Assembly (NCBI GenBank): GCA_950106755.1
Contig: OX467090.1
Coordinates: 2,294,001-2,358,000 of the forward strand
DNA from: Climacium dendroides
Lineage: Eukaryota > Streptophyta > Bryopsida > Hypnales > Climaciaceae
DNA: 64,000 nt
Direction: 5' to 3'
Both the position numbers and the translations under genes were made by a program. Numbering within the stretch: position 1 is the stretch's first letter; each line of letters opens with the position of its first letter. This document shows positions 5,398 through 64,000 of the stretch, piece by piece. The notes under the pieces were generated by a model. That model searched no databases. It was given only the letters and a program-made list of their open reading frames with translations, and had not been told where the DNA came from.

Positions 5398-5800
5398 TGC
5401 ATAAACTTTCTCACTGTCCAAAAATGCATAACTTTCTCACTGTGAGTCAGAATGCCACGAAACAAAGCTCGTGCATCCTCCTCATCGAGAGCTTTCCGAC
5501 GGTACCAAAATTGTGACCAAAATATTAAAAAAGTAATTTTCTAATTTTTTAGAACCAAAAATAACTAAAAAATGCATAACTTTTACACTGTACGTCCGAA
5601 CGCCACGAAACCAAGCCGGTGCACCCAAGCTAGTGTACCCTATGCCGTTGCCACAATCAAAACAAAAGTAAAAGTAATTTTTTAATTTTTAGATCCAAAA
5701 AATACTTCAAAATTCAATAACTTTCACACTATACATTTGAATAGCACGAAACCAAGCCGGTGCATCCCTTTTTGCCGAGGGCTTTCCGACAATACCAAGC
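5398..5800. repeat. Degenerate ~145-bp tandem array, about three copies
   Basis: Each unit begins AAATGCATAACTTT or a variant (near 5421, 5567 and 5707). It then carries a CACTGT-like word, a 'gccacgaaac(c/a)aagc' block, a 'ggtgcatcc' block, and in two units 'gctttccgac'. Units are about 140-146 bp and clearly diverged. It looks like an old satellite-like or element-internal array. Confidence 0.7.
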
Positions 5801-43139: not shown

Positions 43140-44835
43140 CAAAGAGGCAATTACAATGATGAATAAAACTCGTACATACCATAAGCATCAATGGGGCATA
43201 GTTCAAAAGTCATTAGGAAAAAATTGAACCCACAAAGAGGCCTTGAGTTTTCTTACTAATTTTTATACTAATTGAATGAATATGAAGGTGGCCACGTCCT
43301 CATTAGGACCACCACTTGGCATGTGCTCCATTCCTCATGATGGAACCATCATGTTATAATATTATGGACATGGATTGGGTAATGATTACAAATTTTTGAA
43401 TTCATCTTGCATTTCATAACTCAATTAGTGAGTTGAGAAGGCTCTTCTCACTTAAATTTATAAGATCATGGAGATAGATTGGATAATGATGATGGATTTT
43501 TGAATTCATCATGCAATTTTTGGCCCAATTAGTAAGTTGAGAAGGCTCTTCCCACCCAAGCTTTTGCATTACAAAGCGGCCTCTTTTGAGGTTCATTTTT
43601 TTCCTAATGAGTATACTAGAATCGTAATATGCAACATATAATAAATTACTCTAGAAGTTTGAAGAAAACAAAGTTAGCCATGTTAAAGCTCAATTTTTTT
43701 ATGCCATAATTTGGAATTACTTGATATTTTATCAATTTTTACTTTGAACCCCCAAAACACTTCTTGTGCCTTGGCATGTTGGTATACATCATTTCAAATT
43801 GTTATATACAAAAAATTGAAGGAAATTGACATTTATAGAATTAAAAATGTTCACAATTTAAAAAACATGCAAATGGAGTTGGTTCTCATAATATTTGAAT
43901 TTTTTTGGGGGAATTGTGAGCATAGAATTGCATAAGCCATTGAAGAGAGATTATAGGTTTAGGGTACATGTCTTCTATAAGTCATACTGAATTCAGTTTC
44001 TTTAGTGAAAATTTGAAATTATGTTGAATTTGTGAATAAAAATTTTAAAAAATTTCATATCAAATACAAAATGTACTTAATAAATTTGAATTTTTTTTCT
44101 GTAGGTGTATATTATAGTGAAAAATATTGTGATGTTAAACATTTATTATATAAAACAAAAAAGCACTCTTAGGTAGTAGTCCAAAGTTCAAATTGCAGTA
44201 ATTAAAATTTAGGAATTTTTCAAATTTTCAAGTTGGAATAGAAACCAAGCTTGATAATATTCATTTCAGTAGTAGAAAAAATTTCCAAAAAGATAATTTT
44301 GTTGTTTTAAATTTAGATTTAGAAAATGGAGTAGAAATTGCCAAATCACCTACTTGTTGATCCATACAGTGATTGATGAAACTGAGTATAAAGTTGAATT
44401 GTTTTCATTCAAACAACCATACCATAAGCATCAATGAATAAAGTCCAAAAGTAGATGTACAAAAATTGTAGTGTGCAACATACTACACATTACTATGGAA
44501 GTTTGAAGAAAAAATTAGTTGTGATTTGGAAGAAAATCAATTTCAAAGTTAATCATGTCTAACACTTAGTTTTGTTCAATCTGATTTGAAATTACTTTAT
44601 CTTTTTCCAATTTTTTCTTAGAACTCTAAAAGTTTTTTTTGTACCTTGGCATGTTGGTATACATCATTTTAGATTGTTGTACATAAAAATTGAAGGAAAT
44701 TAACATTTACAGAATTTAAACTATCAATAGTTTGACAAACGTGCAAATGATGTTGATTCTCACAATATTTGAATTTGGGGGGGGAATTGACAATATGGGA
44801 TAGCACTAGCCATTGTAGAGAGAGTACAAGTTGCA
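43140..44835. repeat. Diverged direct duplication, two units about 0.9-1.2 kb apart
   Basis: Blocks occur in the same order in both units. CATACCATAAGCATCAATG is at 43176 and 44418. GAAGTTTGAAGAAAA is near 43655 and 44495. CCTTGGCATGTTGGTATACATCATTT is at 43769 and 44643. A 'tctcacaatatttgaattt' block followed by a G run is near 43885 and 44757. The first unit also contains a 103-bp internal tandem duplication (43365-43565). This looks like two copies of one unidentified repeat. Confidence 0.75.
43365..43570. repeat. 103-bp tandem duplication
   Basis: ATGGACATGGATTGGGTAATGAT at 43365 is repeated as ATGGAGATAGATTGGATAATGAT at 43468. Both are followed by TTTTTGAATTCATC and by AGTTGAGAAGGCTCTTC. 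The copies differ by scattered substitutions. Confidence 0.85.
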
Positions 44836-47261
44836 ATATGGACCATTGTTACATCTTAATTCTCTTGCATTTGAAATATTAGTTGAATTGAACAATGTGT
44901 TTAGATTGTATTTCATAGCCATTTAATGCATTTTTAGGTTCAATTTGTTTGTCCAAAGATTGGAGTTCATGATGTACATAATTAATTCAAGAAATCCAAA
45001 AAAAATGAATTATCATTGTCAATGATATTCTTTTCCTTTCTTGGTGGATGAAATTACTAAATTTCTACAAAATTTTAAGAGAATATTTCTTCCTTTTGGA
45101 TAAATAAATTAAAAAATTTCATCCTCTTTGTATGTTTCATCTATATAAATAACTTCACTACTCCAATGATCACTCCTTTTGTACCAACCAAAGTAAATGA
45201 AATAAAAAGCTACATTACAAGAGGCTTTGTCCTTGGAGCAAAGGCTCTTTTTTGAGTGGATCCTACTTTAACTCTAAAACAACAAGCCAAGCCCCTTTGG
45301 CTTGGTTTCAAATAAATCTTTGATTTAAAAAAAAAATTGGAATGTTTCAACTTATTGAATTCACTTTTGTAGTAAACAAAGCTTTTCAAGTACCACATTT
45401 AGGTTACAAAGTCATAGCACTATTCTTGTTGATTAATTTTACATGCCCTAAATGCACAAACCATAGGCAAAGAGCAAGGCCTTTACATTGCTTCAAGGAG
45501 ATTTTTTATTCCCTCCATCAATTCAAAAAATGTTGTCTAAAGTTACACCTCTTCTAATATATAGCCATATGCTAATGCAAAGTCTCTTCCCTTTGGTCCA
45601 CAACTAGTAAAAAAGTTCTAATATGCCTAAAGCAATCATTAAATGAATAGAGTATAGGGTGGACAACTAAATATACCATATTACTATTATGTATTTGGAA
45701 GTAAGTAAAGTAATCCCACTTCAAAGTGAAAATTTTGTTTATCAATTGTAAATGAAACAATCACACCTAAATTGAGAATTTTGGTTGAAAATTGCAAAAT
45801 TAAAATATATTATAGTATATGAGGGTTTAGGGTTTATCACAAATTCTTTTTGTGGACAAATTATATTATTAGATTGATGAAATTTCTATATTTTCTCATT
45901 GGCAAGTGATAGGAAATTTTAATGCACAAAAAATGGAGGATTGCAATTATGTGGGCCTAGGATCATGAGTACATGAGATTAAAAGACTACACACCTATTT
46001 AGTAGGTTTCTATATTATAGAAATCTTATATGATTATAGGATCCTGATGTTATAGATATCTATATTATAGGTGTTTAGGTTTTAAGTACCTTTAGTGGTT
46101 ATAGGATATCTACTTATACATATGCTCAAGGCTTATATATACTTGCATTTCTAGCTATGCTTACATACTAGCATCATTGCAAAGAACACATCATGTGAAT
46201 TCCCTATGCAAAAGTTATGAAGAGTCAAATTTTTTGGGGAAAAAAATAGAGATATTGATTTTAAAGATGTACTTGTTCCATAATATGATTTGGAGGAGCC
46301 TAACTTAAGCCACTCTATATAAGCTAATTAGTTTGGATGCACAAAGAAAACACAATTTGATTGCTTTTAGTTTTTCAAAAATTGCAATTTTGAAGCCATT
46401 CTTCAAAAAGAGATTTAACCTTTTTTTTTACCTACTAAATTAAAGGTATTGTAAGCACTTATTAGATAGAATGGAAATCCTCTTTGGAATTATTTGTACA
46501 AAGGGATCATGAATTTAGAGAAATGGCAATTATCATTTCTGTTCACTACATTTCTAAATTCATGAATTTTTTCATACAATTTTCAATAGAATTTCCATTA
46601 TTTCTTGAAAGTAATTTAGCACATCATTAGTAGCTTGTAAATATATCACCTTTTTATGGAAAATGACTTGAAAACAATACTAACTTTGGAAAGACTAAAC
46701 AACATTCTAATTTATTGTATATCGATCAAAATTAACTTGAGTGTGGTAGCATGTCTTACCCCATGTGTAGTGTGTCTTATATGTATACTAATATAATTGT
46801 GATATGTTTGCAAACCACCCCATCACTAGATTCTTGCATAAAAATGTAGGCCCTTTGAATATGAAAGTCTAGGCTCAATTTTGGATAATTTTTCTTTTCA
46901 ATACAGACTTTAAAAATCCATAGTTTATATAATTCATATAGTTTCTAAAAATTGTTGTGGGAATGAGATCCCACATGCTAGGCCTAGAACACTAGCATAT
47001 GACGGAAAAATTCAAAAATTGTTCCCTTAAAAAGGAAAGTTTTTGAGTTCTCCTAGGAAGTTAGGTTAATTTAGGAAAACTGGATTTCCGGATCCGGAAA
47101 AATTTCATTAGGTCTAAAAACCTAATTCTGGAACCCTAGAAAGTTCCGAAAATCGGATGACGGCACCGGCCTTAAAAACCAGAAACCGGATCCGTACTAG
47201 GGATAGGGTTTTGCCGCCAAAACCTGTCCCGTACATTCATCCAACTAACCGACTATCTGGC

Positions 47262-47269
47262 CAGTATAA
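47262..47269 (+). promoter_or_regulatory. Candidate TATA box of the island ORF
   Basis: AGTATAAGAGG lies about 200 bp upstream of the first ATG (47465) and is the best TATA-like word in the GC-rich leader. Pyrimidine-rich sequence follows at 47305-47340. The assignment rests on position and word only. Confidence 0.35.
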
Positions 47270-47464
47270 GAGGAGGACTGTAGCTGGCAGTGGGAACGAG
47301 TACTTCCTTGTTTTTCCTTCCACTTGTGTTTTCCGTCTTCCTAGCTTTGTGAGAATTCCAATAGATTGAGGGACTGTATGAGTTGCGATCGTGCAGGGGT
47401 TACCGGAGTGAAATTTTGTGAGCAAGAGAGTTAGGGAGAGATTGTGTGAGGTCTGTTTGTGAGC

Positions 47465-49459
47465 ATGATGACTTCTAGGGCAAGCCGGCGCAAGCTGAAG
47501 GATCTGCCCGAGGATTCAGACAATGAGCTTCCGCCACCACCGCCCCGGCCAAGGACTATTCCGGTGATGAAGGTAGTTCCGAAGGTTCCTACCGAGGAGG
47601 ACCGGTTGGTGCGCTTGCGAAAGAACCTCACCAACATGGGGTGTGATGGGCTCCTGGAGGTTCCGTGGGGCATCAGGGAGGAGAGCTTGGTGTCTGACCT
47701 ACTTCTTCTGGAAAGTGGTATCTTGGATACCACCCTTTGGGCGAAACCAGAACTATGGGCGGTTAACACATGGAGGGCCGTCTACAAGTTCCGGGAGGCG
47801 CCGGACAAGGTCATGGAGAAGAATCAGGAGGTGATGGAGGGCGAATTCCGGGCGCCCGCCAATCCGAAGGAAGGTCACCAGGTTTCCGACCTGATGAATC
47901 CGGAGTACCGGGATGTGATAACATTCCTTAATCCTATCCTCCATCCGACCAAGCCGCGGCGAGTGGTAGCGAAGGTAGCCTCCACCATCTTGGGGAGCCT
48001 CTAGGGTAAAATGATGATGGATTGGGCAACCATCATCCACGAGTTAATCGGGGACCTTGTGCATTCCCTCCGGTCGGGGAAGAAGGGTCAAAGTCCCCTT
48101 CCAACGTATTTGTCCCATCTGTATGTTCATCACTCCCTGCTTAAGGCAAACGAGGAGAGCGCCTACCAAGAGCTAGTTCAGCTCCAACAGTACGGAGGAG
48201 AAGAACCCTCTCTTCAAGACGGACCGGACGATGAGGAGACGGAGGACAAGGAACCGCTCACTCTTCTAAAGAAGAAGCAACGACGGACTAGGATGCCGCT
48301 GGTAAATCCGACAGAAGATCCTCCCACACCGGAGCCATTGGAAGAAGAAGTTCAGGAGCAGAAGACGGAGACCAGACCGGCCGCGCAAGACGTCCGACCT
48401 TCTACGCAACAAGTTGGGCCGGTGCAACCGCAAGCTGGTACCACTCAGGCCGAGGCCGGACCCTCCCGATCCAGGATGATGGAGGTAGAGGAGGGAGATA
48501 GGACCCACATGCAACTAGGAGGGATGCCATTAGAGGACATCCAGGAGATGGCTCAGCACCTGGTATGGCGGGTGGATGACCTCACTAAACTCTACGAGAA
48601 TTATGAGGGGGCTCTCAAACGGGTGTGCCGGAAGATGGCACTAACTGATCGGAACGCCATCTTCCGGAGGACGGATGAGTTGATGGCGGCGGAGCTACAA
48701 AACGGTCGCCTAATAGAGGAATGGAAGAAGTTGGTGACGGAATTGGGAGCGTTACGCGTGGAGAACCGGACGTTGCGGGACCAAGTCCGGGATTCAGAAT
48801 CCAAGTGCGTGGGATTAGAGAGCACTCTCCGCACAACCCAAGAGACGGTCCGGCTCATAGAAGAGGACCACCGCCGGCAGATAGCGACATTGTGTCAAGG
48901 TATAGTTCGGCTCCGGAGCTCTTTGGAAGTACCGGTGGATTGTATCAATAAAGCTCGGCTGTTTGAAGCCAACCTTGACGCAGCCACCAATACGAGTCGG
49001 GTGCACATCATGAAGTGCTTATTGGAGCAGGCGAGACGGATGGATGCATTCCGGGCAGAGATGCGGGAGATGATGGAGTATTTGGCTTCCACCGAGTCGG
49101 AACCGGTCACTCTTTCTTCTCCCTCTGCACAAACTTTGGTGGCTACGGAAGGCCATAACCTGGAACCCATGGTTCCGGAAGTAGCACCGGTGGTACCGGT
49201 TGATCCGGAACTTTCACCACCACTTGGAAGGCCAGAAGGAGTGGACTGGGGAGCTGTGGTACCCCAAAGAAGCGAGGATCTACTTCCAGTAACCCCGACC
49301 ATCGACCTGACGGATACTTCTCCGGAAGCTCACAGTGGTAGAGCGGTACATTCTTCTCCTCGTCACAAAAAGACCCAAAAGGATTCCCGGGGTTGTTCGG
49401 ACGGTCCAATAATCGGGACCCGGAGTGTAGACCGGGACCTCAACATCGTGGAGGTCTAG
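47465..49459 (+). pseudogene. 665-codon gag-like or plant-mobile-domain-like ORF broken by one TAG
   Basis: One reading frame runs from ATG 47465 to TAG 49457-49459. It is interrupted only by TAG at 48002-48004, which is followed two codons later by an ATG at 48011 in the same frame. The N-terminal part (residues 1-179) has a proline run (ELPPPPPRPR), a W-rich middle (LWAKPELWAVNTWR) and NPILHPTKPRRVVAKV. After the stop come DWATIIHELIG, LSHLYVHHSLL and a charged, Pro/Gln-rich linker. A long predicted coiled coil (ENRTLRDQVRDSESK region) follows, then a Pro/Val-rich tail. I do not recognise a catalytic domain. The layout resembles gag-like or plant mobile domain proteins of retroelements, but this is inference. 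No frameshift in 2 kb implies it is recent or selected. Confidence 0.55.
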
Positions 49460-50060
49460 AGATGGGGACAAAGGGGTCCAAGTCTGTTTCCTCCGGAGAG
49501 TAGTCGGAAGGAGAAGAAACTGGATTTGCTGAAGGACTATGTTCTTCCCAAGGATCCGGATTCCAAGGAATAGTGTACAGTAACATAGTATAGTGGCAAT
49601 ACCGGAGTCCAGCCATCAAAAGCCGGAAAAATAGGATCTGGGATTTACCAGAAATCTAGCGGACCAGTAGGAATGTTTTGTAGGATTTTTAGGATGATGT
49701 TAGTCTTAGTATAAGTAGGGTTTTGATGGCTTTTCTGGTCATTCGCATCCATTCCATAGTTCCAGCATTGTACCTTTTTGAGCTTAATTCCAAGTGTTTG
49801 GAGTATCCATTCTCTTATCTTTTTATATGCGGTACATGTTTGTGGGAGGTGTAGGTCCATTCTTGCTTTTCCGGAGACTGAGAACTTACCTTGAGTAGCA
49901 AGAGTCGATTTCGTGAGTGGTTTCCGGATGTACTAACTTAATGGGGAGATCAACCGAATGGTTCCAGCAGTAGTATTAGTGTAGTACTGCTCGGATGCCG
50001 GTATAGCCTGCGTGTAGGATACAGCCTTAGGTGAAAGGGGTATCTGAGAGGCTGCTAGCA

Positions 50061-50078
50061 ACTTTCGTATACGAAAGT
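50061..50078. repeat. Perfect 18-bp palindrome
   Basis: ACTTTCGTATACGAAAGT is its own reverse complement. Flanking bases (GCA on the left, GTTGC on the right) extend the pairing with a one-base bulge. It lies in the unexplained 3' part of the GC-rich island. It could be a protein-binding site or an RNA hairpin. Confidence 0.8.
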
Positions 50079-50333
50079 GTTGCAAGACGTGCCCGAACTC
50101 TGGATTGCCGGAATTCCCCGTAGAACAGAGTCAAAGCCCCGGTGCAAGCCCAAGAGAGTACAAGGAAACCCACCCGGTCGACGGGAGGCTCAGTGCCCGG
50201 TTAAGGTTAGAATGTCGTTGTAGTCCTTGACCGTCCCTGCGTGACCTAATCCGGAAAGCCTTCCGGATTTGTGAGGTGACGGAATAGGAGGACACTTTCG
50301 GACCTTGAAGAGTTCGGTTAGTACTAATATTAG

Positions 50334-50358
50334 GGAGAGAGAGAGAGAGAAAGAGAGC
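50334..50358. repeat. GA microsatellite
   Basis: This is a run of GA dinucleotides with one AA interruption (GAGAGAGAGAGAAAGAGAG). It lies within the GC-rich island. Confidence 0.9.
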
Positions 50359-51100
50359 GTGTTTCCGGACACGGTAAGCATCCGGACGGTGGATCTAGCC
50401 ACTCGTCATCCAAACCCAGGGATCCCGGAAGGGGCACTGAACGGTTTCCGGATTCTTCCGGAACCCATCCGGCACTAGTGGCCGGACCGGACCTATAGTC
50501 CGGAGTAGTCTGACGGAGAGAAAGTGAATGCTTAGATTGGGTTATCCTATAGATCTATAAACCTCAAGTCCTCGTGGGAACGATTCCGGAGCGGTTTACT
50601 CTAAGTGGGCCTTTGGTGTGAATTAAGGGCTAATTGAAGGAATACTGGTCCGACTAATCGCTACAATTGTATACAAAAATATTCTAAAATCATTTTTGAT
50701 TGGACCACATCAGTTATAGTGCATTGTCCTTATAAAGTTAATTCTACAACAATGCATCCATTGGTCTAAAACTGTCTCATAGATGATAGCATGGCCACTG
50801 AGGTACATTCTAGGTGGCCTCAATAGCTTCCTCTAAGCCATTGGAGCCTTTTTCTTCCTATTGTCACTTAGCCAAACACAATGTTCAAAGTGACCATTTA
50901 CAAAATGCATCCAAACATTCAATAGTAGTGAGCCCTTTTAGTGACTCAAGACTGGAGATTGTAGAGAATCTTTGTCTAAGCATGTTTTCATACAATAGTT
51001 TTGGAATAGGTAATGAAAAGCTAGAGTAGATAGTTGGTGCAAAAGAACTAAGCTAATTGATATGTAACATCCCCCCAAGCAGAAAGGTGGGGTCCCAATT

Positions 51101-51432
51101 TTGGAAGTAGGAGTACAATATAGAATGGTGGAGTTCTATACTCCACTTTTTGGTCTTCACTACACAAGGGGCCTGCTCCATTTATTTTGGCATGTCAAAT
51201 TGAGCAAGCTATAGTAGCCATGATTTGACATAAAATCCTTCCATACAAGACAAAAGTTCAAATATTCATCCTCGGAGACATATTGCATAGTAGTTTGCTC
51301 TCCAATGAGTATTCTTGGAAGTGGGAATAAACAAAGGACGGTAGGGGGCCCTACTCTACCCTCTAGTCTTCATCACATAAGGGCCCACTCACTTTATTTA
51401 GGCACATCAGATTGAGCAGGCCACAGTAGCCA
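51101..51432. repeat. Diverged ~212-bp tandem duplication in the 3' part of the gypsy element
   Basis: The block running from TTGGAAGT(A/G)GGA through 'ggtcttcactacacaaggggcc' and 'ttgagcaagctatagtagcc' near 51101-51220 recurs at 51313-51432. Scattered substitutions separate the copies. It lies between the PHD-finger stop and the candidate polypurine tract, so it is probably part of the retrotransposon's 3' untranslated region. Confidence 0.75.
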
Positions 51433-51911
51433 TGCTGTTGTGTCACTCTACATCATTTATAGGAAGTGTCGTAAACTACAAGCACTAGAACATACATACA
51501 TGCTCACAAGCAAATCCACACTACAACAAGGCATTGAATGAACAACCATCCAATTGCCCCCCTAGCTGAGTAAAGCTCCCTTGCAACTTAGCTAGCAACA
51601 AAAGTTAAATGAAATAAATTCCACTACACTCACTATATAATCAATATGTTGAAGAAGATAGTTCATAGGCCTCCATCCATTTGTAGTATTGAATCAATCA
51701 TAAGTGAAGGGATAAGTTGGGTGCAATGGAGCCCCATCCTCAATCGCTTCCAACATTGTAGTTGGACTCCACAAAATCTTCATCCAAGCTTCAATATCAA
51801 GAACCATTGCTCATACTCCAACATAAAATGTCACAAGTGACTATATGTCCTATCAATAAAAAAACCCATCAGTAACCACTTGAAAAAGTAGTATCAACTG
51901 ATCATTTTCTA

Positions 51912-53170
51912 CAACGGGGACAAGTCCAGCCTCTAGTAGGAAGAACAATCAAGGGTGGTCAAAGACATGCCATGTGCCAACCTCGCTGACACAAATTACA
52001 TAGCAACATAGTTGTAGCACCCTTACTCTCCCCACATACAAAACATTTGTATCTAGGTGGAACCACTGCCAACTTTGGATCTACAGTCCTTTCAATTGGC
52101 AAATGATAAGGAGCGCAATTTTTGGTGTTGTCTTTGCACTCCTGTCCATCTTTTCCCTTCAAAAGAAGAACTCCACTAGGCAAAATGGCCTTGACTCTCA
52201 AAACGGTCCGCCCTGCCCGAACATCCAAGGTTGTTGGTGTCTCACGTTGCAAATACACGTAATCTCCAACCTTGAACCGTCGAAGTTGAGGCCTATAAGC
52301 CCCACTTCTAATGCGCGCATATTTGAGAGTATCTCTGTATTGCGCTATCGCCAAGTTCTCCATAGCCATTGGCATGGCCCTTTGAAAATACTTAGCTCGA
52401 TCCTGTAGCACCTCTGTCCAAACTCCAAGGTCATCCAAGTCTACTACTGGATTCAATTTCTCCCTCAATGCTGACGGTAACATTGGCTCTCTACCATACA
52501 ATAGGTGATAAGGGTTATAAGATGCAAGAGATGCCTGTCGACTAAAATGATAGCTCATTGCTATCCACGGCAACTTCAAATCCCAATCACAGTGATTGCC
52601 TGTCAACAATCCGTACTTGCACAAACCACGCTTGACTACCTGAACCACCCTCTCTGCCAATCCACCAGCCTCTGGGTGGTTCCTTGATGTTGTATGGTGA
52701 TCAATCAGAGCTTTAGTGCAAAGCTCCTCAAATGCCCCAAGAAACTCTCTTCCTTGGTCTACCAACACCTCAGTTGGAGCTCCAAATCTAGCCAACACAC
52801 GGTCAAGGAATGCCGCTACTGCCAACTCCGTGGAATTTTGTGATAGTGCGACCAACTCAATCCACTTGCTGAAATGCTCTACTATCACAAGTACATACTT
52901 GGCCCCTCGTGATGTAGTCATTAATGGCCCAGCAAAATCAAGACTCTACCTATAGCCCAATCCCATGATTGGTAAAGGCCATAGTTGGGGAGTTAGAGTG
53001 TTGAAGCTTGATCTAATTTGATCACAGACTTCACACCTCCCCACATAGGTTGCTACCTCTTATTGTATGCCCATCCACCAATATAATCCACGTATCATAG
53101 AATATGTACGTCGTACGCCAAAATGACCCAACTCTTTATGAACTTATCGTATCAATTGAAGACGTTGGTC
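51912..53170 (-). pseudogene. Gypsy integrase with C-terminal PHD finger
   Basis: Integrase inserts retrotransposon cDNA. The HHCC zinc domain (HKELGHF ... CEVC) lies at about 53020-53150. The catalytic core has LDFAGPL (first Asp), VDQGREF (second Asp) and LAERVVQ (Glu), the last two 34 residues apart. A KVGDYVYLQ block lies in the C-terminal domain. A complete C4HC3 PHD finger ends the protein: CFVC, CNLC, WHMAC, then GWTCPRC. PHD fingers often bind histone H3 tails, so this could guide integration or chromatin choice. Breaks are TAG 52946-52948 (a Trp is likely ancestral), TAA in the zinc domain and TGA 51959-51961 inside the PHD. Frame homology continues to TGA near 51912. Confidence 0.85.
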
Positions 53171-53395
53171 TAGTCTAGGAACAACCCTCCGAGTTCCATC
53201 TGGCCACCTACGAAATATAAAGCCATCCTCCCAATGAAACCTAGGCAAATGATGGGCTACTCGGTCTCTTTCTTGAAATGTGATATTAGATAGAAACTCC
53301 CCATGCTGAAGACAATGTAGAACCCCTTGGTCTTTTCACATATTAGTGGTAACTTGAAGTCCTCCTCCATTTAAGTCTTCATCAACAGCATCCAA

Positions 53396-54942
53396 TCAAG
53401 TCTCTCCTAAATCTTGGCTAGATCTTCCTTCCATCCATGCCAAATAAGATGAAGCATGCCATCTTGGAACTGCCTCTTGATCACATGTGCTATGCCATCG
53501 GGCACCAATCAAATCTTCCTTCAAGGGACTTGGATTGCGGCTCAAGCCATCAGCATCCAAGTTTTGCAAGCCCGCCTTGTGAACTACTTCAAAATCGTAC
53601 TCTTGTAGCAGTAAGGCCCACCTAGCAAGCTTCCTTGTGAGTTTATCAGATTCCATCAACCATTTCAAAGGTTGATGATTAGTTACAAGTGTAAAACTTT
53701 GGCCATAAAGGTATGGATGGAAATATACAACCGCCCACACTACTACTAAATCTTCCCCCTTATAAGATGAATATTTGGCCTCTACATCATTGTTGCTTCG
53801 TGAAGCATACGCAATGACATATTCCTTGCCATCATCATCCTTTTGAGTCAACACAGCTCCAATTCCTAACATACTCCAATTTGTATGGAGTTGGAAAGGT
53901 CGTTGAACATTAAGCCTCCTCAACACTGGTGCTGAACCAAATGCTCCTTTCAAAGCCTAAAATGCTTTTTTTTAATCAGGGCCCCACATCCATTCTTGAT
54001 CAGCTCGAGTCAATCGAGTCAATGGTTTGGCTAAAAGACTGAACCCACGAACGAATCGTCGGTAATAGTTTGCCAGTCCCATAAAGGCTCTCAACCTTGA
54101 CACATCTTTAGGAATGGAAATCCTCTTCAAAGCTTCCATCTTTGCCTCTTGTACTCCCAAGCCTCCTGGTGTAATCATATGGCCCAAGTAAGGCAACTAA
54201 TCATGAAAGAATTTACACTTCCCATGATATAAGTAAAGACCCCAAGCTTGCAGCCTCTCAAAGACTTGCTGCAAGTGTTTTACATGCTCCTCCGGTGTAT
54301 CACTAAAGATAATCACATCATCTATATAACACCGAGCAAATGGAAACTTCTTCAAGACTTGATCCATCACATGTTAGAACTCCGCTAGGGCGTTTTTTAA
54401 GCCAAAAAGTAAGAACTTCCAATAGAAAAGCATATCTCTTCCATCATCATCTACTCTCTAAAATGCCGTCTTCACCCTATCTTCTAGTCTCAATGGTAGT
54501 TGATGGTACCTGACCTCAAATCCAAAGTACTAAAGACTCTTAACTTTTCAACTGCATCAAATAACTCCTTAGGTGTTGGCATGGGATATCGATCAGACTT
54601 TGTTTTCTTATTAACAAGACAGTAATCTCCACACATCCATTTCTTTGTTCAATTTCCAAGAACACCTTTCTTGGCTGGCATCACTGTGGCACATGCATAC
54701 TCTCCATCTCAGAATTTTACCAATCCGGCGTTCAAAAGTTCTTTGCACCTCAGTTTAACCCCATCTTTTTCCGAAATGTTGAGCCTATATGGGTGTCTAA
54801 ACATTGGATGATCATCCTCCAATTGAATTCTCACAGGCTTGCCTTTATAACTTTCCAAATTATTGAGTTTGAACGCAAAGCAAGCGCTATACGAGCGTAT
54901 GAATGCTCGCACCTTTCGTACCTTTGCACTAATGAGTCCCAT
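53396..54942 (-). pseudogene. Gypsy reverse transcriptase and RNase H region
   Basis: RT: GLISAKVRKVR through HPYRLN and EKDGVKLRCKELLNAGLVKF is the N-terminal region. LDLRSG (motif A region) and ARCYIDDVIIFS (YxDD catalytic motif, about 54310-54340) follow, then LPYLGHMITPGG. RNase H (53396-53953): GIGAVLTQKDDDG, YVIAYASRS, GEDLVVVWAV and NLDADGLSR. Two acidic residues expected in the RNase H active site are Asn here (HTNWS and VTNHQPL where the family has TD and TDH). Several stops and frameshifts lie in 54200-54700. This explains why the element cannot replicate. Confidence 0.85.
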
Positions 54943-54979
54943 CACTACAACAAAAGTAGTGTTTTATGATTGCAAAATA

Positions 54980-55600
54980 TGACTACAGTGAGTTGTAAAA
55001 TCAAAAAATATTACTCACACAAAAATCACTGTAGATGACTCAGAATATGATTGACTCCAATAGTTTAAAAGCAATCGCTTCAAACATTAGTCATATTGGT
55101 AGTCATATGGATTGAAGGATATAAATACCCATATTTAGCTATAGTATGTCATTATGATGTATACTTTGACTATCATAGGGGGTCTTGATTTTTTCTTGAG
55201 TTGCCCGGGAAAACCAAAAAATCCTATGTGGAATATGACTATAGTGAGTCATATTTTTTGATGACATGGAATATGACTGTAATGAGTCATATTTTGCAGT
55301 GATGTGAAATATGACTATGATGAGTCATATTTTGCAGTGACATGAAATAAGACTCTTCTAAGTCATATTTTGTAGTGATGTAAAATATAACTGCGGTAAG
55401 TCATATTTTTTATGACACGGATTATGACTACAGTGAGTTGTATTTTTTGTTTATGTAGAATGTGACTGCGGTGAGTCATAATTTTGGATAACATGAAATA
55501 TGACTACGATGAGTCATATATTTGATTGATGAGGAATATGACTACGGTGAGTCATATTTTTTAGTAACGTGAAATATGACTTTTCCCAATCATATTTTAC
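54980..55600. repeat. Subterminal array of AATATGACTA...GAGTCATATTTT units
   Basis: About a dozen units of roughly 40-50 bp each contain TATGACT(A/G) followed by (T/C)(A/G)GTGAGTCATATTTT and a 'gatgacatg' spacer. Each unit is itself partly palindromic (TATGACT / AGTCATA). The same words return at 57280-57660 near the other end. This is typical of CACTA transposase-binding regions. Confidence 0.85.
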
Positions 55601-56020
55601 ACATATTTTACACCTCATTTTAAAAATGATGTGTAAAATATCATATTTTACACATCATTTTAAAAATGATTTAAAAATATCATATTTTACACATCATTTT
55701 TAAAATGATTCAAAAATATCATATTTTACACATATTTTACAAATATCATTTTTGAATGATGTGTGAAATATGACTTTTGAATGATGTGTAAAATAATTCT
55801 TTTCACTCATATTTTTTGATGATTTGTAAAACGACTATGTGTAGTCATACATCAACATAATTTAGTAGTTAAGTAAGAGAATCCATTTAATTAAAAATGA
55901 ATACATATGATTTCTTAAATGGGCAAAAATTAATCACATTAAAAAGTTAAATACAAGAAAAAATGTGATTTTTTTCAATAACATTTATTAATTACTAACA
56001 CAAAATATATCACAATGGCT

Positions 56021-56023
<3 letters not shown>

Positions 56024-56072
<49 letters not shown>

Positions 56073-56087
56073 TTTTTTTTTTTTTTT
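56024..56087. repeat. (TA)23 microsatellite followed by a 16-T run
   Basis: Uninterrupted TA repeats run from 56024 to 56069. A short spacer and a run of 16 T (56072-56087) follow. The site is likely highly polymorphic. Confidence 0.95.
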
Positions 56088-56399
56088 CACATACTTGTAG
56101 AACCTATATTCCAATAAAAATGTAAAGATGTTACCTCTTTTGTATTGCAAATAGCCTTCAATAACTTCATTTCAACCTCCAATGCCTACATGTATAAACC
56201 AAAAGGTTAGTTTTCAATAAATGAACAATATAATTCAAACTTCAAAAATTTAAAGCACTACAAAATATATAGACATGTTTAAGATAAAAAAATTATAATC
56301 ATTATATATTCAAAAATTATAAATAACAAAAAAAAATAACAATGATGATAGAGGGACTAAGAAGTAAAAAGTAGCAAAAACTAAGTGACATTATGATTG

Positions 56400-57240
56400 C
56401 AAAATATGATTAGGAGGTAAGAAGAAGAAAAACCTAAAATGGAAGAAAAACAAAAGTTAAAAGGCAAGAAGAAGCGAAATCTAAGATGGAAGAAGAAGTA
56501 AAACCTAAGATGGAAGAAGAAGCAAAAGCTAGGAGGCAAAAAGAAGCAAAATCTAAGAAGGAAAAAGGAGCAAAACTTAAGAAGGAAGAAAAAGCGAAAT
56601 CTAAGAAGAAAGAAGAAATAAAACTTAAGAAGGAAGAAAAAGATAAATCCAAGAAGGAAGAAGAAGCAAAACCTAAGAAGCAAAACTTAAGAAAAAAAAA
56701 GAAGAAAAAAACTTAAGAAAAAAAAAGAAAAAAAAGTTAAAAGGCAAGAAGAAGCAAAACTTAAGAAAGAAGAAGAAACAAAAGCTAAGTAAGAAGAAGA
56801 AGCAAAACCTAAGAAGCAAGAAGTAAGGAGCAAGAAGAAGTAAGAAGAAGTAAGAAGAAGAAAAATCTAAGAGGCAATAAGAAACAAAACTTAAGAAGCA
56901 ACAAAAACAAAAAAGAAGGAACAAAAAAGAAAGAAGAAGAAGCAAAAGCTAAGTAAGAAGAAGAAACAAAACCTAAGAAGCAAAAATTAAGAAGGAGCAA
57001 GGAGGAACAAGAAACAAAACTTAAGAAACAACAAAAACAAAGAAGGAACAAAAAAGAAAGAAGAAGAAGCAAAAGCTAAGTAGGAAGAAGAAGCATAACC
57101 TAAGAAGCAAGAAGAAGTAAGAAAAACCAAAAAGAAGAAAAACCTAAGAAGTAACAAGAAACAAAACTTAAGAAGCAACAAAAACAAAGAAGAAGAAAAA
57201 AAAAGAAAAAAAAAGTGGCAAAAAAAAAGTGGCAGCTAGG
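56400..57240 (+). repeat. ~840-bp purine-only-like tract coding Lys/Glu repeats
   Basis: The plus strand is almost entirely A and G, with AAGAAG, GAAGAAGCAAAA and CCTAAGAAG words. One frame (56486-56714) reads as KEEAK-like repeats with no other content, and the opposite strand reads Phe/Leu/Ser-rich. I interpret it as an expanded (AAG)n-derived tract within the CACTA element and not a gene. Confidence 0.8.
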
Positions 57241-57670
57241 GTTTCAAAACCCTAAATTAGTGGCAACTACAAAAAAGTGACTTTCAAAAAATATGACTAC
57301 AAAAAAATTCTACGTGGAAAAATATGACTAGGTACTTTCTAAACATATTCCCTACCCAAATTGTTTTTGGGTTGCCCTAAAAAAAATCTTACTATCATGG
57401 AGATGCGATTGCAAAATATGACTAAAGAAAAAATTTGACTAGAAAATATGACTGGGCATTCCCTAAATATGTTCCCTACCATTCTCTATGAAGTATTTTG
57501 GTGTTTCCAATGGCCATATACTATACGGCCATGATGTGTAAGGCTAAAAAATGACTTGTAGTTATATTTGCAGTAATGTTTCTTTTACCTTCAAAAATAT
57601 GACTACAAGCAATCACCAGTCATCTTCAATTATAATTTTGCAGTCATAAAATACTGCCATTGTTGTAGTG

Positions 57671-58057
57671 CATGCCTATGTCCATCTCCCAATCCTTGTC
57701 AATTGGTAAGATGATTTCTTCTTTTAGAGACCCTTTTGATGGTGTTGGCACCACCTTTGATTGCTAGTTGGAAGAACTTGCACCATTGCCCTTGTCTAGG
57801 ACAATAGATACATCATCACCCTTTGCCATTCCAAATGAATCACCTCTATTAGTACCAATGTTGGTACCATCTATAGAATGAGGTGATGTGACGAGATATG
57901 GGTCCTCTTTTGTAAAAAACACATTCTTGAACTTCTCTGTGGCATCTTCCATTTCCAAATCTTGAGCCAAAACTGCCAATACACGTTGTCCTCGTAGCTC
58001 ATCTTCTACAAGCCACTCCACATTATTTTAGGTTCTTCTCTTCTCAAGTGCTTGGTT
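57671..58057 (-). pseudogene. Gypsy pol linker between methyltransferase and RT
   Basis: The minus-strand frame contains EWLVEDELRGQRVLAVL, KFKNVFFTKEDPYL and, after one stop, GSLKEEIILPIDKDWEMDIGM. It then meets the CACTA insertion and resumes as the RT N-terminal region. No catalytic motif is visible. It is separated from the methyltransferase frame by two stops near 58030-58057. Confidence 0.6.
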
Positions 58058-59350
58058 TCAAGCTTGTTGACTGTCATGCCATGCCTTGGCATCTAAAGTA
58101 GTTATCTTCTCCACCACTAGAGGTACATTACTCTTTGCCCCCTGGCCTGAAGCATCTGCCCCCAGATTGCCTTCAAGGCCAAGTTTCTTGTGTCGTTGAG
58201 CTGCTAAGCATACTCTAAGAAACCAAACCATAAATGTGAGGTCCATGGCTTGTCCAAGGCATTGACGTCGTTGAGACTCTGTCAAACCCAGTCCACAAGT
58301 GATACCGGTAGGAAAATCCATAGCACATTCCCGCTCAATAGCACATGGCTCCTCCAATCTCATAGAAGTGTTGTCAAACACCAAACCCGGTCCGCCATTG
58401 CAAAAAACAAAAGACTGAGGATAGCTCATCAAAGTAGGAAATGCAAATCATAGCATCCCTACATGATTGATTATAGCCAATGGTAGTTGATCTTCTTGCA
58501 TCATTGTTTGGGCAAATCGGCCCTCTTCCAAAATGTCATCAAGAAGTCTGCGGTCTAGACGATTGATGTGATGTAATGCCGCTGAAACCCCTCAAATGTG
58601 AGCCAAATTGGTCCACTTCCATTGTAAGCGATGGGCGTAAGAACCAAGAGCTGCAGCATCTATTGCAATTGGCTCTCCAAGGTTCTGACATACCACCTTT
58701 GCATTCCCATGAACTTGGGCTCCAACATCTCCCAATGGAGGCACATTTTCAAGAACATAGGCCACACTTGTGACTTGATTGCGTTGCCACCAATGCAACA
58801 ACCGCAAGAGCTCCCAAAATAAATTTGAGCATGGGTCTTGGAGTCCTTGGTAGTAACCAGCCTGAGAATGTCCTTGACAAGGCCATCCAGCCATTACAAG
58901 GTCCACTTTGCCCAACCTTAGAAGATCTTCTTCTCCAATCAAGGTAATGTCCAAAGGAGCTCAAGACATACAACCTTGGATTGCACTTGCAGATAGTTGC
59001 TTTGAATATTGCATCCTCAACTGTTGCAAATGATGTTTGGCTGCTCTACTGACCACAATGTTATTTTCTACATATGTATAACTCCGTATGGACAATCTTG
59101 CTTCCAATACTACAGCTAAACCAGTACCAAGTCTAGTAAATAGTTCTATAAGAACTATGCCCTCATGATCATCATGAAGATCCACAGGCTGTTGTAGAGG
59201 TAGCAATGTGGATTGTGGCTGCCAAAGATGATGGTCTACTCCGTCCACCAACTCATGGCATTTTTCAGCCAAGTCTTTGGGTGAAATCCATGGTAGTGTG
59301 GGATCCTTGGGATGTCTTACAAACGGTTTGAATTCACCTTGTGTTTGCAA
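58058..59350 (-). pseudogene. Retrotransposon-borne C5-cytosine DNA methyltransferase
   Basis: C5-methyltransferases transfer a methyl group from S-adenosylmethionine to cytosine. Motif I is IELFTRLGTGL (59117-59149), with YTYVENN as the motif II region. Motif IV is AGWPCQGHSQAG with the catalytic Cys at 58877-58879. Motif VI is LENVPPLGD (Glu 58748-58750). The motif VIII region is YAHRLQWKWTN, where an expected second Arg is Gln. DFPTGIT and QRRQCLGQAMDL form the motif IX-X region (about 58238-58310). The order is canonical, not permuted as in plant DRM. The frame is continuous except for TGA stops at 58961-58963, 58592-58594 and 58448-58450, each one change from CGA (Arg). It sits between the protease-like and RT regions of the gypsy element and is inferred to have been part of its polyprotein. 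Confidence 0.9.
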
Positions 59351-59900
59351 ATCTAACTATGGAGGTGAGTCTGTAGCAGACATATTCCCCTCAAGCAGCA
59401 AATCTCCAGTCGCAAACCATTCCGCAATGCATCCATACACTTCCACCAAGCCCTCAACCACGCCAGCAGAAGCACCAAAGATGACAAGAATCACTTCCTT
59501 CTGTCTATCTCCTTGTGACCACCCTAGTTGAAACCATGTTTCCTCAGTCTAAGAATCATGACCAAAACCAATGGGGTACAAAGCTTGTTGCTCTAATAGA
59601 ATGTCATAGCTAGTAGCACTTATAACCACACACCTTATAGAGATGTGAATGTATGCATCAGTGCCACTTTGAACTGAAGTCGTAGTGGCTCTTTGATCAG
59701 TCCCGTAGGTTGCTCTGTGCCCTCAAGTGATGTTGCTATATTGAATGGACATGGGTCCAAATCACTAGAAAGAAGTCCCAAACTTTGAATTGACTACTTT
59801 GAAATCAAAAGACATGACTAGAATTGGCCAAACGTACTACTCTTGGCTTGACTTGTAAATGCTCACGGGTTGCTCAAGCTAGTATTGTTGCCAAATAGCT
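59351..59900 (-). pseudogene. Retropepsin-like remnant of the gypsy element
   Basis: Minus-strand frames carry DLDPCPFNIATSLEGTEQPTG, then (after a shift) TDAYIHISIRCVVISATSYDILL and EQQALYPIGFGHD. These resemble the C-terminal half of retroelement aspartic proteases (a 'SATSYDVLLG' type block). The expected D(S/T)G catalytic triad is not visible, and several stops and shifts occur. The assignment rests on resemblance and on position between gag and the methyltransferase. Confidence 0.45.
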
Positions 59901-60515
59901 TGTGGAATCCTCTACATCACTTTCAACAGTTTCTCCACTTGAATTCAAGCTGCTATTGAATTCTGCTTGTGAAAGGGATTTCTTTGGCCACCCCTTCCAA
60001 CATCGCAAAGCATCTGCTGCTGCCTTGGCAGCATCTTTCATTGTGCCTTATTCACCATCAGCCAAAGAAGACTCTTCCATCTCTCTCATGGCCACATTGG
60101 CAGGCGTTTGAACTGTGCCTCGCATAATCTTTCCCGCCATATGATATACGACAGCTGCATCAAAATTTCCTCTTTGCAATTGAACCCTTAAGAACAATAG
60201 AACCTTCAATAGTTTACAAGCCAAACTCTTCACCATGTCTCCCTCTTTTGCTGAATCTCTTTCACTAGAAATTGTTTTAAGGGATGGTCCACTCACCACA
60301 TCTGCCAGGCCAAATGGCAATGGCAATCTTAATTGCCCAATACTATCAGAAGCCCCTTGGTGGCGCACATGAGGCCTTTCTTGGGTGGCCAAGTTTTTTT
60401 TCCACCATGGGTGCAACTGGCAAAGAGCTACCTTGTGATCTAGTAGCCACTGCTACAACCACTTCACCAAGTGCACCGTACTCAAACCTATTTGATCCAG
60501 ACTTTGAGCTAGAAG

Positions 60516-61105
60516 CTCGGAGGGTGCACTACAAAGGAAGTTCATGGGTGAGGAGCGACCAAATTTTGGACCCCCTATATTATATCCTAAAATTTTATTT
60601 TTTTTCTAAAAAAATATAAATAGATTTTCCTACTTTCAAAGTTTGTGTTATGAATTATTGGTATTTTTTTTATGTTAATAAGAATTAGTTACAAATTTTA
60701 GAAGAAAAAAGATACACTGTAAAGCTAAAAATTACTTTCACACCCCTATATTATATAAGAAAAAAAATTTGAAAAATGAAAAAAAAATTCTATAAAATAG
60801 TTTTCTACTCAAAGTTTATTTTGGCTAAATATTGATACAATAGTCACCTTTATGTGATCTTTATAAATATTTTAGTTGAAAAACATGCCATTTTAGTTCA
60901 TTTTTTGATCATTTCTAGACAATATATCACATGTTATTTAGGATTGAAATTTTTAGCAATAGAAATCTATAGACATTGTTAAATAAAGCTCAAAATTGTA
61001 GATTGAAATTATAGTTTATTAGAAAGTAATTAGGAAAAGTAGAAATGGGTAGTTAAGATTTGGTCACTCCTCATTCATGAACTTCCTTTGTAGTGCACCC
61101 CCCGG
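60516..61105. mobile_element. MITE, 590 bp, 9-bp target duplication, inside gag
   Basis: The ends share GGGTGCACTACAAAGGAAGT followed by TCATG(G/A)(G/A)TGAGGAG(C/T)GACCAAAT in inverted orientation. AGCTAGAAG (60507-60515) and GGCTAGAAG (61106-61114) flank the element, a 9-bp target duplication with one mismatch as made by Mutator-type transposases. The interior is AT-rich without a gene. The CACTACAA word near the ends also recalls CACTA termini, but a 3-bp duplication does not fit there. Confidence 0.75.
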
Positions 61106-61442
61106 GGCTAGAAGTGTTGGTGTGATCTTTGCTGTCACCGCAACAAGCAATGCTAGAGTATTTTGCAACTCTCCCATATGTGCCTCAAGATTGTTGCCCC
61201 CAGAATTTGATCCACCTCCTTGAGTAGCTTGTGGGGTAAATGATTGAGGCCTCAATTGCGGGTTCTTCATCCAACACTTATCCTCTGTGTGACCAACTTG
61301 ACTACAAGATACATAAGTGCACTTTAGAGGTGTGCCTCAACTGTGAGCCTTCTTTGGTTGCCCCTTGTTTGCCGTAGATGCATTACCCTTATTGGTAGCT
61401 AGTTGCCTACCACTCTTGCCTTCAAATGATGTATCTATAGGA

Positions 61443-61520
61443 CAATCTCTCATCCCGTGGCCTAACAATCTTTCTTCCCATGGCCTAACAATCTCTCTTC
61501 CCATGGCCTAACAATCCACA
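61443..61520. repeat. 23-bp triplication in the gag zinc-knuckle region
   Basis: CCTAACAATCT(T/C)TCTTCCCATGG occurs at 61461-61483 and 61484-61506, with partial copies on both sides. On the minus strand it repeats the 'GHGKRDC' end of the first zinc knuckle. The duplication shifts the downstream frame. Confidence 0.85.
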
Positions 61521-62737
61521 ATTCCAATACTGCATACGAGGATTGGCTACCACCTCTACTTTAGCCGCCATAGCAGCTTGCTTGGAGGCCTTAGGAGTCC
61601 CTTGGCTCTTGCTAGAGCCACCAACACTGGCCTTAGATTGGCTTGTTGTTGAAGTCATGATGAATGATAGTCTTCCAGCCTCCTCTACACATAGCCCTCG
61701 ATCCAATTGCTCCGCAACATCAAACGCCTGAGCTAAGGTAGCCCAACCTCCATACAATAGCAATATGTGAGGGTGTGCCATATTACGGATTTTCTTGTCT
61801 TGCTTCCCCATGTAAAGCTCCATCAATTATCACTCTGTGAATGCATCTCTACTTTCACAAGCAAATTTGGAAAGCCTTGCATATATGATGTGGGGAATGT
61901 CTCCAGTTTCCTTCTTAAAGTCTTGGATGTGGCACATGCGATCTCGGCAAATGCCACCAAATTCCATCTCCAAATGTTCGAAAAACAATTGAAGAGGATC
62001 AAACTGAGGAGGAGGGCCCATTGTAGCTATTGCCTCGATTGAAGCTCGAAACAATCGAGAGATGAATGTAGCTGCAGTCCCATCAGTGCCACTTGTAGCG
62101 GCTCTTGGACGCAACCGTGCAGCATGTACTACATCAAGGCCCGAGGTAGCTTCTTCACCTCGCTCATCATCTCCATCACCGGTCCTTGAAGCCACAACTG
62201 CTAGAATCGCAGCTCCCTCCTTCAATGCAGTGACTAACTCCACCCTTTGAGCCCAATAGTCTTCTACCTCCTCCAATTCAAATCTATGATCTTCAAACCA
62301 AGAATCATAAGCTTGTAGAGCCTCAAATTCAAAATGAGAGGGCAATTGTTCAAAAGCCCATCAATCATTGAACAACGCATTGCATTGTCTTTGTATCCGT
62401 TGCCAGGAACAAAACCTGGTCTTCCAATCATTGAAGGCCACGCCTTCAGCTCTTCCTAAGTAGCGGTCACAAACCATAGATCCACCGCCATGGTCCTCCA
62501 TGATGCCAAAAACACTGATCCCCTAAGTTTTGAATGGATCAACACTTACAAATGGCAAGACTGGCTCCTCCTCACCCTCTACACCACGAATATCAACCTC
62601 CTCAAATACGTTGTAGTCACGTGTACGTGTTTGTACCATAAATAATCTTTAAACGTTGAATCTTCTATTCCACCGTCAAACTGCTCCACGTTGGCCTATC
62701 TTGTTGCAGCTCTAGATTGGTTCAAGTCGCAAGGTAG

Positions 62738-62952
62738 CACTACAAGAGAAACTCGTCCTAATTGACAAAAATCAGCCCCTCCTAATCTACAAAAAATTGA
62801 CAGGTTTTTATCAATTAGGACAAAAAATTGTCCGAATTGACAGAAAATTGTCCAAATTGACAAAAATCTGTCAATTTTCTGTAGATTAGGAGGAGCTGAT
62901 TTTTGTCAATTAGGACGAGTTTCTGTCATTTTGGACAGGTTTTCTTGTAGTG
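62738..62952. mobile_element. CACTA-type MITE, 215 bp, TAG target duplication
   Basis: The left end reads CACTACAAGAGAAACTCGTC, and the right end reverse-complemented reads CACTACAAGAAAACCTGTCC. TAG flanks both sides (62735-62737 and 62953-62955). The whole element is a foldback: GTCCTAATTGACAAAAATCA and CTCCTAATCTACA on the left are inverted on the right. It lies in the presumed 5' leader of the gypsy element. Confidence 0.9.
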
Positions 62953-62955
62953 TAG

Positions 62956-64000
62956 GGACAAGAAACCACAGGATACGGGATGGGTAGAACCGATGGCATA
63001 CCACGAGATACCGTTGGTGAAATGGATCCTAAACCTCAAACTTATGGTTTGCTGGTCATCAACCCAACCTCATCGCAAGAACAGAGCAAGTCTCGACCAT
63101 GTGGGTCATCAATCCCACTTTGTCACCACGATAAGAAATGGAGTTGAGCAATGGTGTGACCCCCGCCGCTCGCAACAATAATAGTTTACAAAGCGTAAAT
63201 GAAGCCTGCAAAATAGGCCAGACAATCACAATTACAAGCAATTAACTGCAAGCCCTCCAAACCTTTCTAACTAGACTCCATCTACACCTCCCAAACTAAA
63301 CCAACTTCTACTATAGTAGACAATTACCACAATTTTTTTTTAACACTTGTGATAATTTCTCCAAATAACTCCAAAATTACTATAGTAACTATCTAGGTAA
63401 TTTTCAAAATTAATCCAATAACTGCCCCAGTAACTTCCAAAATTATCCCCGATAATTAATCCGATAATATTTAAAGTTATTCTAGTAACTAGTCCGGTAA
63501 CTTCCCAAAGTCAACTGGTCTTCATCTCTCTCGTTTTTTCAAGCTATCCACGCTTGAAAAACATCAACAATCCTCACAAAAACACCTCCAAAAACAAACC
63601 CCAACGCAAAATTTCAAAATGCCATAACTTTCTCAATATTTGGTAGTTTTTGGCAATTTTGTAGTTTTTGGATAGCTTACACTATTAGTGATCTTTTTAA
63701 CACTAAACAACCACCTAAATGGCCCCCCAAAACCAAATCAGCACTAATGCTAGTTTGGTCCAGCACACATGGGGTTTTGGCAATTTCACTAAAATTCAAA
63801 TATCTTCTTCAATCTTCCTCAGAATTGAACAAAACAAATTGGACATGGATCCTTACAGTCAAGGGCTTCCTCCAAGTTCTTCTTAGCAACCTCCATGCTC
63901 TCCACGACCCTCCAACTTCAAATCAGCACCTTCAACTCCAAAGCTCCAAGACTTGAATTTGCCAGAGCTTCCGCACGTCACCACCAACGCCACCAACTCC
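62956..64000 (-). other. Presumed 5' leader or LTR sequence of the gypsy element
   Basis: No coding domain is visible. On the minus strand CGGTATCTCG and GTGGTATGCC near 62998-63020 are weakly similar to plant tRNA-Met primer sites. 63310-63510 is a degenerate array of (A/G)GTAACT and ATAATT words. 63700-64000 is GC-richer. I could not match any of this to the 3' end of the element, so LTR identity is unproven. Confidence 0.3.
63310..63510. repeat. Degenerate short-period array (AGTAACT / CCGATAATT words)
   Basis: TAGTAACT, AATAACTGCCCC, AGTAACTTCC, CGATAATTAAT and GGTAACTTCC recur about every 15-25 bp. The pattern is too diverged for an exact period. It resembles internally repetitive LTR or leader sequence. 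Confidence 0.5.

Follow-up and report, generated by a model that had tools for sequence, protein, structure and literature searches.

Retrotransposons that encode DNA methyltransferases (DNMTs) have so far been reported from dinoflagellates and from the charophyte Klebsormidium nitens (de Mendoza et al. 2018, PMC5890265, in the part of the paper available), the precedent that the original prediction for this locus had invoked. They present a paradox in that they bear the type of enzyme used for transposon silencing. According to the abstract of that paper, retrotransposon DNMTs carry out de novo CG methylation, and methylation of cDNA was suggested. The dinoflagellate SymbioDIRS-Dnmt3 and SymbioLINE-Dnmt are DIRS and LINE elements regarded by its authors as independent captures; they resemble the element described here in encoding a C5 methyltransferase, and CG methylation was reported for the DIRS enzyme. 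In K. nitens, KnitGypsy-Dnmt3, the repeats of which are called DIRS-like in a figure legend, is described as combining Gypsy domains with a non-rearranged Dnmt3-type methyltransferase (MTase). A further paper (PMC12344493, in its available part) refers to DNMT3 embedded in retrotransposons of streptophytes and dinoflagellates, with the 2018 work as its source, and a 2019 review (PMC6338049) states in its available part that land plants lack such transposons, on the loss of which it builds an argument. Here, a stretch of 64,000 nucleotides from Climacium dendroides (contig OX467090.1, positions 2,294,001 to 2,358,000; the window) was analyzed, which very probably carries a decayed, nested plant Ty3/gypsy copy with a Dnmt3-type MTase in its polyprotein. 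No land-plant description of an MTase-bearing retrotransposon was found among the literature matches listed, subscription journals being mostly outside their coverage, and the window and a record from Sphagnum balticum speak against the absence stated in that part of the review. Like KnitGypsy-Dnmt3 as described, the element joins Gypsy domains to a non-rearranged MTase of Dnmt3 type. While KnitGypsy-Dnmt3 belongs to a charophyte host and is described with its MTase in the Pol frame, the element of the window lies in a land plant, and both here and in the related contig L031 the MTase ends the frame of gag and protease (PR), ahead of a stop of leaky type.

The element occupies the minus strand from about position 62522 (gag) to 51905 (PHD finger). 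Pfam matches and tblastn comparisons with relatives (protein records numbered with P) gave the order gag, PR, MTase, reverse transcriptase (RT), RNase H (RH), integrase (INT) and PHD on this single strand. The order of PR, RT, RNase H and integrase after gag is that of Ty3/gypsy, with gag assigned by position. Pfam was run on pieces of the element taken separately; the gag and protease pieces had zero matches. With relatives, tblastn recovered gag-like sequence at 62393-61121, protease and MTase at 60519-57851, RT-RNase H-integrase at 54957-52718 and integrase-PHD at 53185-51905. The gag-like remnant (61121..62522), broken in frame, was delimited with P0138, P0139 and L031, by its position and by a Cys/His-knuckle-like stretch seen by eye. 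It is followed by a spacer and the remnant of a retroviral-type aspartic protease (59500..60519; tblastn with P0122, P0138, and P0139), which is based on PF13650 scoring above the cut-off in P0121, P0122, and P0139; its active-site stretch was not recovered in the window in comparisons with P0121, P0122, P0138, P0139, and L031. The Dnmt3-type MTase domain (58058..59356), one stop-interrupted frame, continues in the same frame into a C-terminal extension (57767..58057), at the end of which stands the candidate readthrough signal TAG CAA TCA (57758..57766). RT and RNase H (53396..54942; PF17917, E = 2.1e-33, with matches to P0148 and L031), integrase (52046..53242; PF00665, E = 7e-13, with P0001 at 80% over 53185-51905) and a PHD finger of approximate limits at the integrase C-terminus (51905..52045; PF00628, E = 5e-4, 20.5 bits against a cut-off of 24) complete the series. 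The predicted strand, shared by the MTase with gag, RNase H, and integrase, was recovered. The predicted place of the MTase between the protease remnant and RT held for the order, with the qualifications that the protease active site is missing from the alignments and that a nested element of 2.7 kb separates MTase from RT.

The MTase consists of three pieces (59356-58961, 58960-58592, and 58447-58058) in a common minus-strand frame with stops between them. Pfam DNA_methylase (PF00145) matched the middle piece with E = 5.6e-11, and the outer two had no Pfam match of their own. With stops written as X, 58058-59494 aligned with P0121 across 99% of the query, 61% of residues being identical (E = 2.5e-190), and residues 50-369 of P0148 map onto 59164-58205 by tblastn. 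The window keeps the Phe and second Gly of motif I, P-C-Q of motif IV, E-N of motif VI, and the first Arg of motif VIII. Of the canonical motif series originally predicted, the order stood, and two residues did not: the first Gly of motif I is replaced by Arg and the second Arg of motif VIII by Gln. The extension ends in GNGASSSN in the window and in GNGAPSHN, GKGAHSSN, and GNGAQSSN in P0121, P0132, and P0135, respectively.

In DRM enzymes, motifs VI-X stand ahead of motifs I-V. The order I, IV, VI, VIII, IX/X of the window and its relatives differs from this arrangement, and the canonical order, the catalytic Cys and Glu, and DNMT3 as the nearest of the solved classes agree with an enzyme of Dnmt3 type. 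By sequence profile as well as by fold, the nearest solved catalytic domain is that of DNMT3A/DNMT3B (75.4 bits for DNMT3A), with DNMT2-type tRNA enzymes well behind (0.0085 and 0.014); among the 50 matches listed by VIA-align are DNMT3A/B/C, HhaI, HaeIII, and the CpG-specific methyltransferase 4dkj. The sequence comparisons support a Dnmt3-type MTase and, as predicted, a motif order other than that of DRM. The enzyme differs from DNMT3A/DNMT3B in motif IV, which reads GSPCND there and GWPCQG here, and in that the MTase frame of L031 has no PWWP or ADD match in Pfam. Phage and bacterial enzymes, which were retrieved by the motif IV loop that they have in common with the family, reached up to 64.7 bits with the profile of alignment A2. 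Twelve of 34 such frames were read closely; a bacterial-type motif VIII stretch occurred in 11 of the 12, and the motif IX/X stretch ended in GNAV or GNSV in the five frames in which it was compared. On this comparison of motifs VIII and IX/X, made without a rooted tree, a phage or bacterial origin was set aside.

Relatives were found with the MTase stretch as query (17 proteins) and with a 14-row alignment (88 proteins at E up to 1e-6), both searches scoring only the candidates that shared most words (7,995 and 7,996). Combined, they gave 92 distinct proteins (P0121-P0212), all of which match a frame of L031 by blastp; the last six, P0207-P0212 (E 1e-8 to 9e-7), are possibly cellular enzymes of the ordinary kind. 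A Pfam scan of 20 of the 92 found protease with MTase in eight, above a cut-off in P0121, P0122, P0139, P0160, and P0195 and below it in P0127, P0138, and P0153. RT occurred with MTase in four: P0148, which also has RNase H and integrase, P0151, P0164, and P0166. P0138, P0139, and P0153 have a long N-terminal part that was read as gag, with no Pfam match. P0195, the record from the moss Sphagnum balticum, has protease and then MTase from motif IV onward, and together with a probable plant gene in the window it agrees with the land-plant setting of the original prediction. The relatives suggest that MTase-bearing elements have existed in land plants as a family for a long time. P0169 (Closterium sp. 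NIES-54) combines a copia-type gag with a related MTase, which may reflect either an artefact of gene modelling or a second capture by another kind of retroelement.

When bacterial and archaeal genome contigs were scanned with alignment A2, five loci were found, four in Streptomyces and the fifth being L031, a contig of 9285 bp titled as a Synechococcales metagenome-assembled genome. Being a retroelement contig, it is very likely misbinned. Its ends carry an exact repeat of 127 bp. A first frame, open at the contig start and ending at 3491, contains MTase preceded by protease, the latter below its cut-off; another at 8582-9283, open at the contig end, joins it in phase if the 127-bp overlap closes the contig. 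The frame at 3492-6635, in the same phase as the MTase frame, encodes RT, RNase H, H2C2, integrase, and a complete PHD finger (Pfam, E = 4.3e-10). About 2 kb without long frames, at the site expected for a long terminal repeat (LTR), complete the circle. L031 matched the window at 72 and 68% in two RT-to-PHD segments and at 44% in the main PR-MTase segment, and its non-coding part had no similarity to window DNA at E 1e-3. P0141, labelled as an Obscuribacterales 'DNA cytosine methyltransferase', belongs to the same retroelement MTase family; it and L031 likely come from misbinned contigs and could mislead searches for bacterial enzymes.

Because protease and RT fusions occur in other records and L031 has the same order, the sequences support the MTase as part of the element and no chance neighbour. 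It is extremely improbable that a host Dnmt3 gene or pseudogene lies beside, or was swept into, a single element copy. The initial finding did come from a single locus, and Dnmt3 sequences are present in bryophytes according to the available part of PMC5890265, but protease-MTase and MTase-RT fusions recur in independent records and in L031, the frame is the same on either side of the stop, and, for the six elements in which both domains occur, the trees of MTase and RT do not conflict, one of the three inner RT branches being open. A host gene adjoining the element is ruled out by the fused relatives and L031, unless all of them are assembly artefacts. The predicted cytosine MTase within a Ty3/gypsy polyprotein was confirmed by the Pfam match, the P0121 match, the fused relatives, and the open frames of L031.

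The new feature is that the MTase frames of the window and L031 end at a common UAG CAA UCA, which on sequence grounds puts the MTase with Gag. L031 reads AAG TAG CAA TCA and the window AAC TAG CAA TCA at the equivalent place (57766-57758), so that nine bases are the same (L031:3489-3497) and the codons beside the stop differ. The frame stays open past UAG in L031, and the window has the same frame on either side of it. Identical three-codon windows between L031 and the window, counted as a control, numbered 8 of 933 in gag-PR-MTase, 30 of 993 in RT-to-PHD, and 1 of 100 in the N-terminal piece of gag. In the available part of PMC2754532, CAR YYA after UAG is described as essential in tobacco mosaic virus, CAA UYA is termed Type I, and rice gypsy-type elements (RIRE2) are cited as readthrough candidates. 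The junction shares UAG followed by CAA UYA with this tobamovirus-type readthrough; it differs in that the candidate signal divides MTase from RT. Readthrough of UAG at the MTase/RT border appears quite probable. Among the 92 relatives, 14 align to at least residue 1130 of the 1162 in the frame of L031 and finish within 54 residues, 11 reach residue 1050 and end earlier or differ (P0133 has about 180 extra residues and no RT), and 63 fall short of the junction region; these are ends of protein records, in which a stop codon and a contig end look alike. The MTase tree includes twelve of these 14, which all fall in an 18-row clade (91/82) with the window and L031.

The whole favoured account, a Ty3/gypsy element with a Gag-side Dnmt3-type MTase, a leaky UAG, and methylation by the packaged enzyme, is considered probable. 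The majority of ribosomes would halt at UAG and yield Gag-PR-MTase, while a minority would pass it and add RT-RH-INT-PHD, and the protease would cleave both polyproteins. As a product made together with Gag, the MTase would enter the particle in amounts similar to those of Gag and exceeding those of RT. The packaged enzyme could then methylate double-stranded cDNA before or just after integration, and the PHD finger of the integrase could steer insertion by chromatin state. Among the best 60 of 82 neighbours of the L031 PHD in the PDB are CHD4, PHF12, Cph2, UHRF1, KMT2C/D, KDM5A/B, PHF21A, and AIRE, several of which read unmodified H3 tails. A PHD integrase and a methylase in one polyprotein might, as a speculation, recreate the pairing of reader and writer known from Dnmt3. 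A function in methylating cDNA or new insertions is plausible by analogy, although one that we stop a little short of favouring. Self-restraint, by which methylated new copies would be silenced, harm to the host limited, and the family kept in existence, is an option proposed in the available part of PMC5890265 and fits the deep divergence of the MTase family, but alone it leaves the production of the MTase with Gag unexplained and is held to be unlikely. In the favoured account, the leaky stop offers a testable reason for the enzyme to travel with the capsid. The window and the Sphagnum balticum record bring the question to plants open to culture and transformation, such as mosses.

Several observations weigh against the favoured account. 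Gag had no Pfam match in any copy scanned (window, relatives, and L031). No LTR pair was found in the window, where a repeat comparison of 62300-64000 with 44000-62300 gave only a 19-bp match, and the 127-bp end overlap of L031 is as expected from a collapsed LTR or a one-LTR circle. The MTase evolves faster than RT, with nonsynonymous divergence (pN) of 0.35 vs 0.16; dN/dS ratios were not used because synonymous sites were saturated in 7 of 8 stretches measured. At the junction, the stop context is known from the DNA of two elements only, the pattern TAGCARYYA is not rare (2 seen in the window vs 4.2 expected), and four relatives (P0148, P0151, P0164, and P0166), all outside the 18-row clade, pass from MTase into RT stop-free, so a Gag-side MTase is not universal. 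These same points would fit a UAG that is an ordinary terminator, with RT-RH-INT made by re-initiation or from a separate RNA and the stop context coincidental. However, nine bases are identical in two elements with different flanking codons, they fall in the exact CAA UYA leaky class for which gypsy-type candidates from rice are cited (PMC2754532, available part), and the L031 frame is open beyond the stop, which makes such a terminator an improbable explanation. The weight of the junction signal comes from its place and conservation and not from rarity.

Substitutions in the MTase belong to the same side of the balance: Glu replaces Pro of motif IV in 5 of 65 relatives, Tyr replaces the catalytic Cys in 2 of 66, and His replaces Asn of motif VI in 11 of 60, so that some branches may be altered or inactive. 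Motif IV reads WECQG in P0148, P0153, P0160, P0169, and P0195 and WPCQG in the majority, a Glu adjoining the catalytic Cys being odd for the class. An enzyme that acts on RNA, or a nucleic-acid-binding or structural particle module in place of a DNA methylase, would be consistent with this variant motif IV, and PMC5890265, in its available part, raises RNA methylation for the dinoflagellate LINE enzyme, with no DNA methylation in yeast. Yet the nearest solved domains are those of DNA enzymes, with the tRNA enzymes far behind, the catalytic Cys and Glu are retained in nearly all aligned relatives, and the same paper's abstract credits retrotransposon DNMTs with de novo methylation of CG sites; such a role is considered quite unlikely.

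The MTase tree was built from 31 rows, of which 28 cover at least 75% of the domain and three are partial, and it pairs the window with P0121 (100/98). Separate well-supported groups are formed by P0148 and P0160, by P0153 and P0195 (Sphagnum), and by a set with P0164 and P0166. The deep forks are weak, with long branches meeting and P0169 very long. In the RT tree, built from the six elements that have RT as well as MTase, the window joined L031 and P0164 joined P0166, the third inner branch being the open one. P0164 and P0166 share the MTase family and RT tree of the element, and may or may not go back to the same capture as KnitGypsy-Dnmt3. A search with integrase-PHD returned 162 proteins, the best 120 of which name Klebsormidium nitens, Calypogeia fissa, Sphagnum fallax, and Marchantia polymorpha. 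K. nitens P0036 and P0054 have integrase-PHD homologous to that of the window at 49 and 47%, respectively, and P0164 shares 70 and 55% identity with P0054 over two short stretches. One weak locus from an IMG/VR scan for INT-PHD was not used. A single old capture is the simplest reading, without proof, transfer between lineages being possible. Tentatively, and as a rather unlikely scenario when taken whole, a PHD-integrase gypsy lineage would have captured a Dnmt3-type enzyme before the split of land plants and charophytes, and the family would have persisted in early-diverging land plants. There the leaky UAG would have shifted the enzyme to the Gag side for bulk packing, and a split Dnmt3 of histone reader and DNA writer would pick chromatin and lay CG methylation on its own new copy, which would pass for host DNA.

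In correction of the original reading, the copy in the window is a pseudogene with 26 in-frame stops over 8 homology segments compared with L031; it is dead, and any proposed function is now lost. Three inserts are associated with the element. A nested CACTA-like DNA element of about 2.7 kb (54943..57670), with ends CACTACAACAA ... TTGTTGTAGTG and a 3-bp duplication CAT, splits MTase from RT at a place where L031 continues insert-free; 38-bp-spaced repeats stand near one of its ends, along with a long purine-rich array of 24-bp spacing. An inverted-repeat insert in the gag-PR region (60527..61095) has ends CACTACAAAGG ... CCTTTGTAGTG and 50-nt arms at 90%, lacks a clear target duplication, and lies where homology with P0139 breaks off and restarts on the flanks. 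Upstream of gag, a CACTA-type miniature inverted-repeat transposable element (62738..62952) has ends CACTACAAG ... CTTGTAGTG and a 3-bp duplication TAG. No primer-binding site was identified, and the 5' end of the element is perhaps beyond the edge of the window. Neither the Rfam scan nor the tRNA scan gave a match in the window.

Two probable host genes were recognized elsewhere in the window. Exons of an APD1-4-like RING E3 ligase lie at 29457-31868 on the plus strand, with the RING (28.9 bits) and middle domain (26 bits) above the cut-off and the N-terminal domain below it; APD1-4 is a plant family. Exons of an endoplasmic reticulum lumen (KDEL) receptor lie at 8856-9466 on the minus strand, and both sets of exons suggest plant nuclear DNA. 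On the plus strand at 47450-49459, two adjoining frames of 184 and 484 amino acids have no Pfam match in a GC-rich region (52% at 48-50 kb) and are perhaps the gag of another retroelement.
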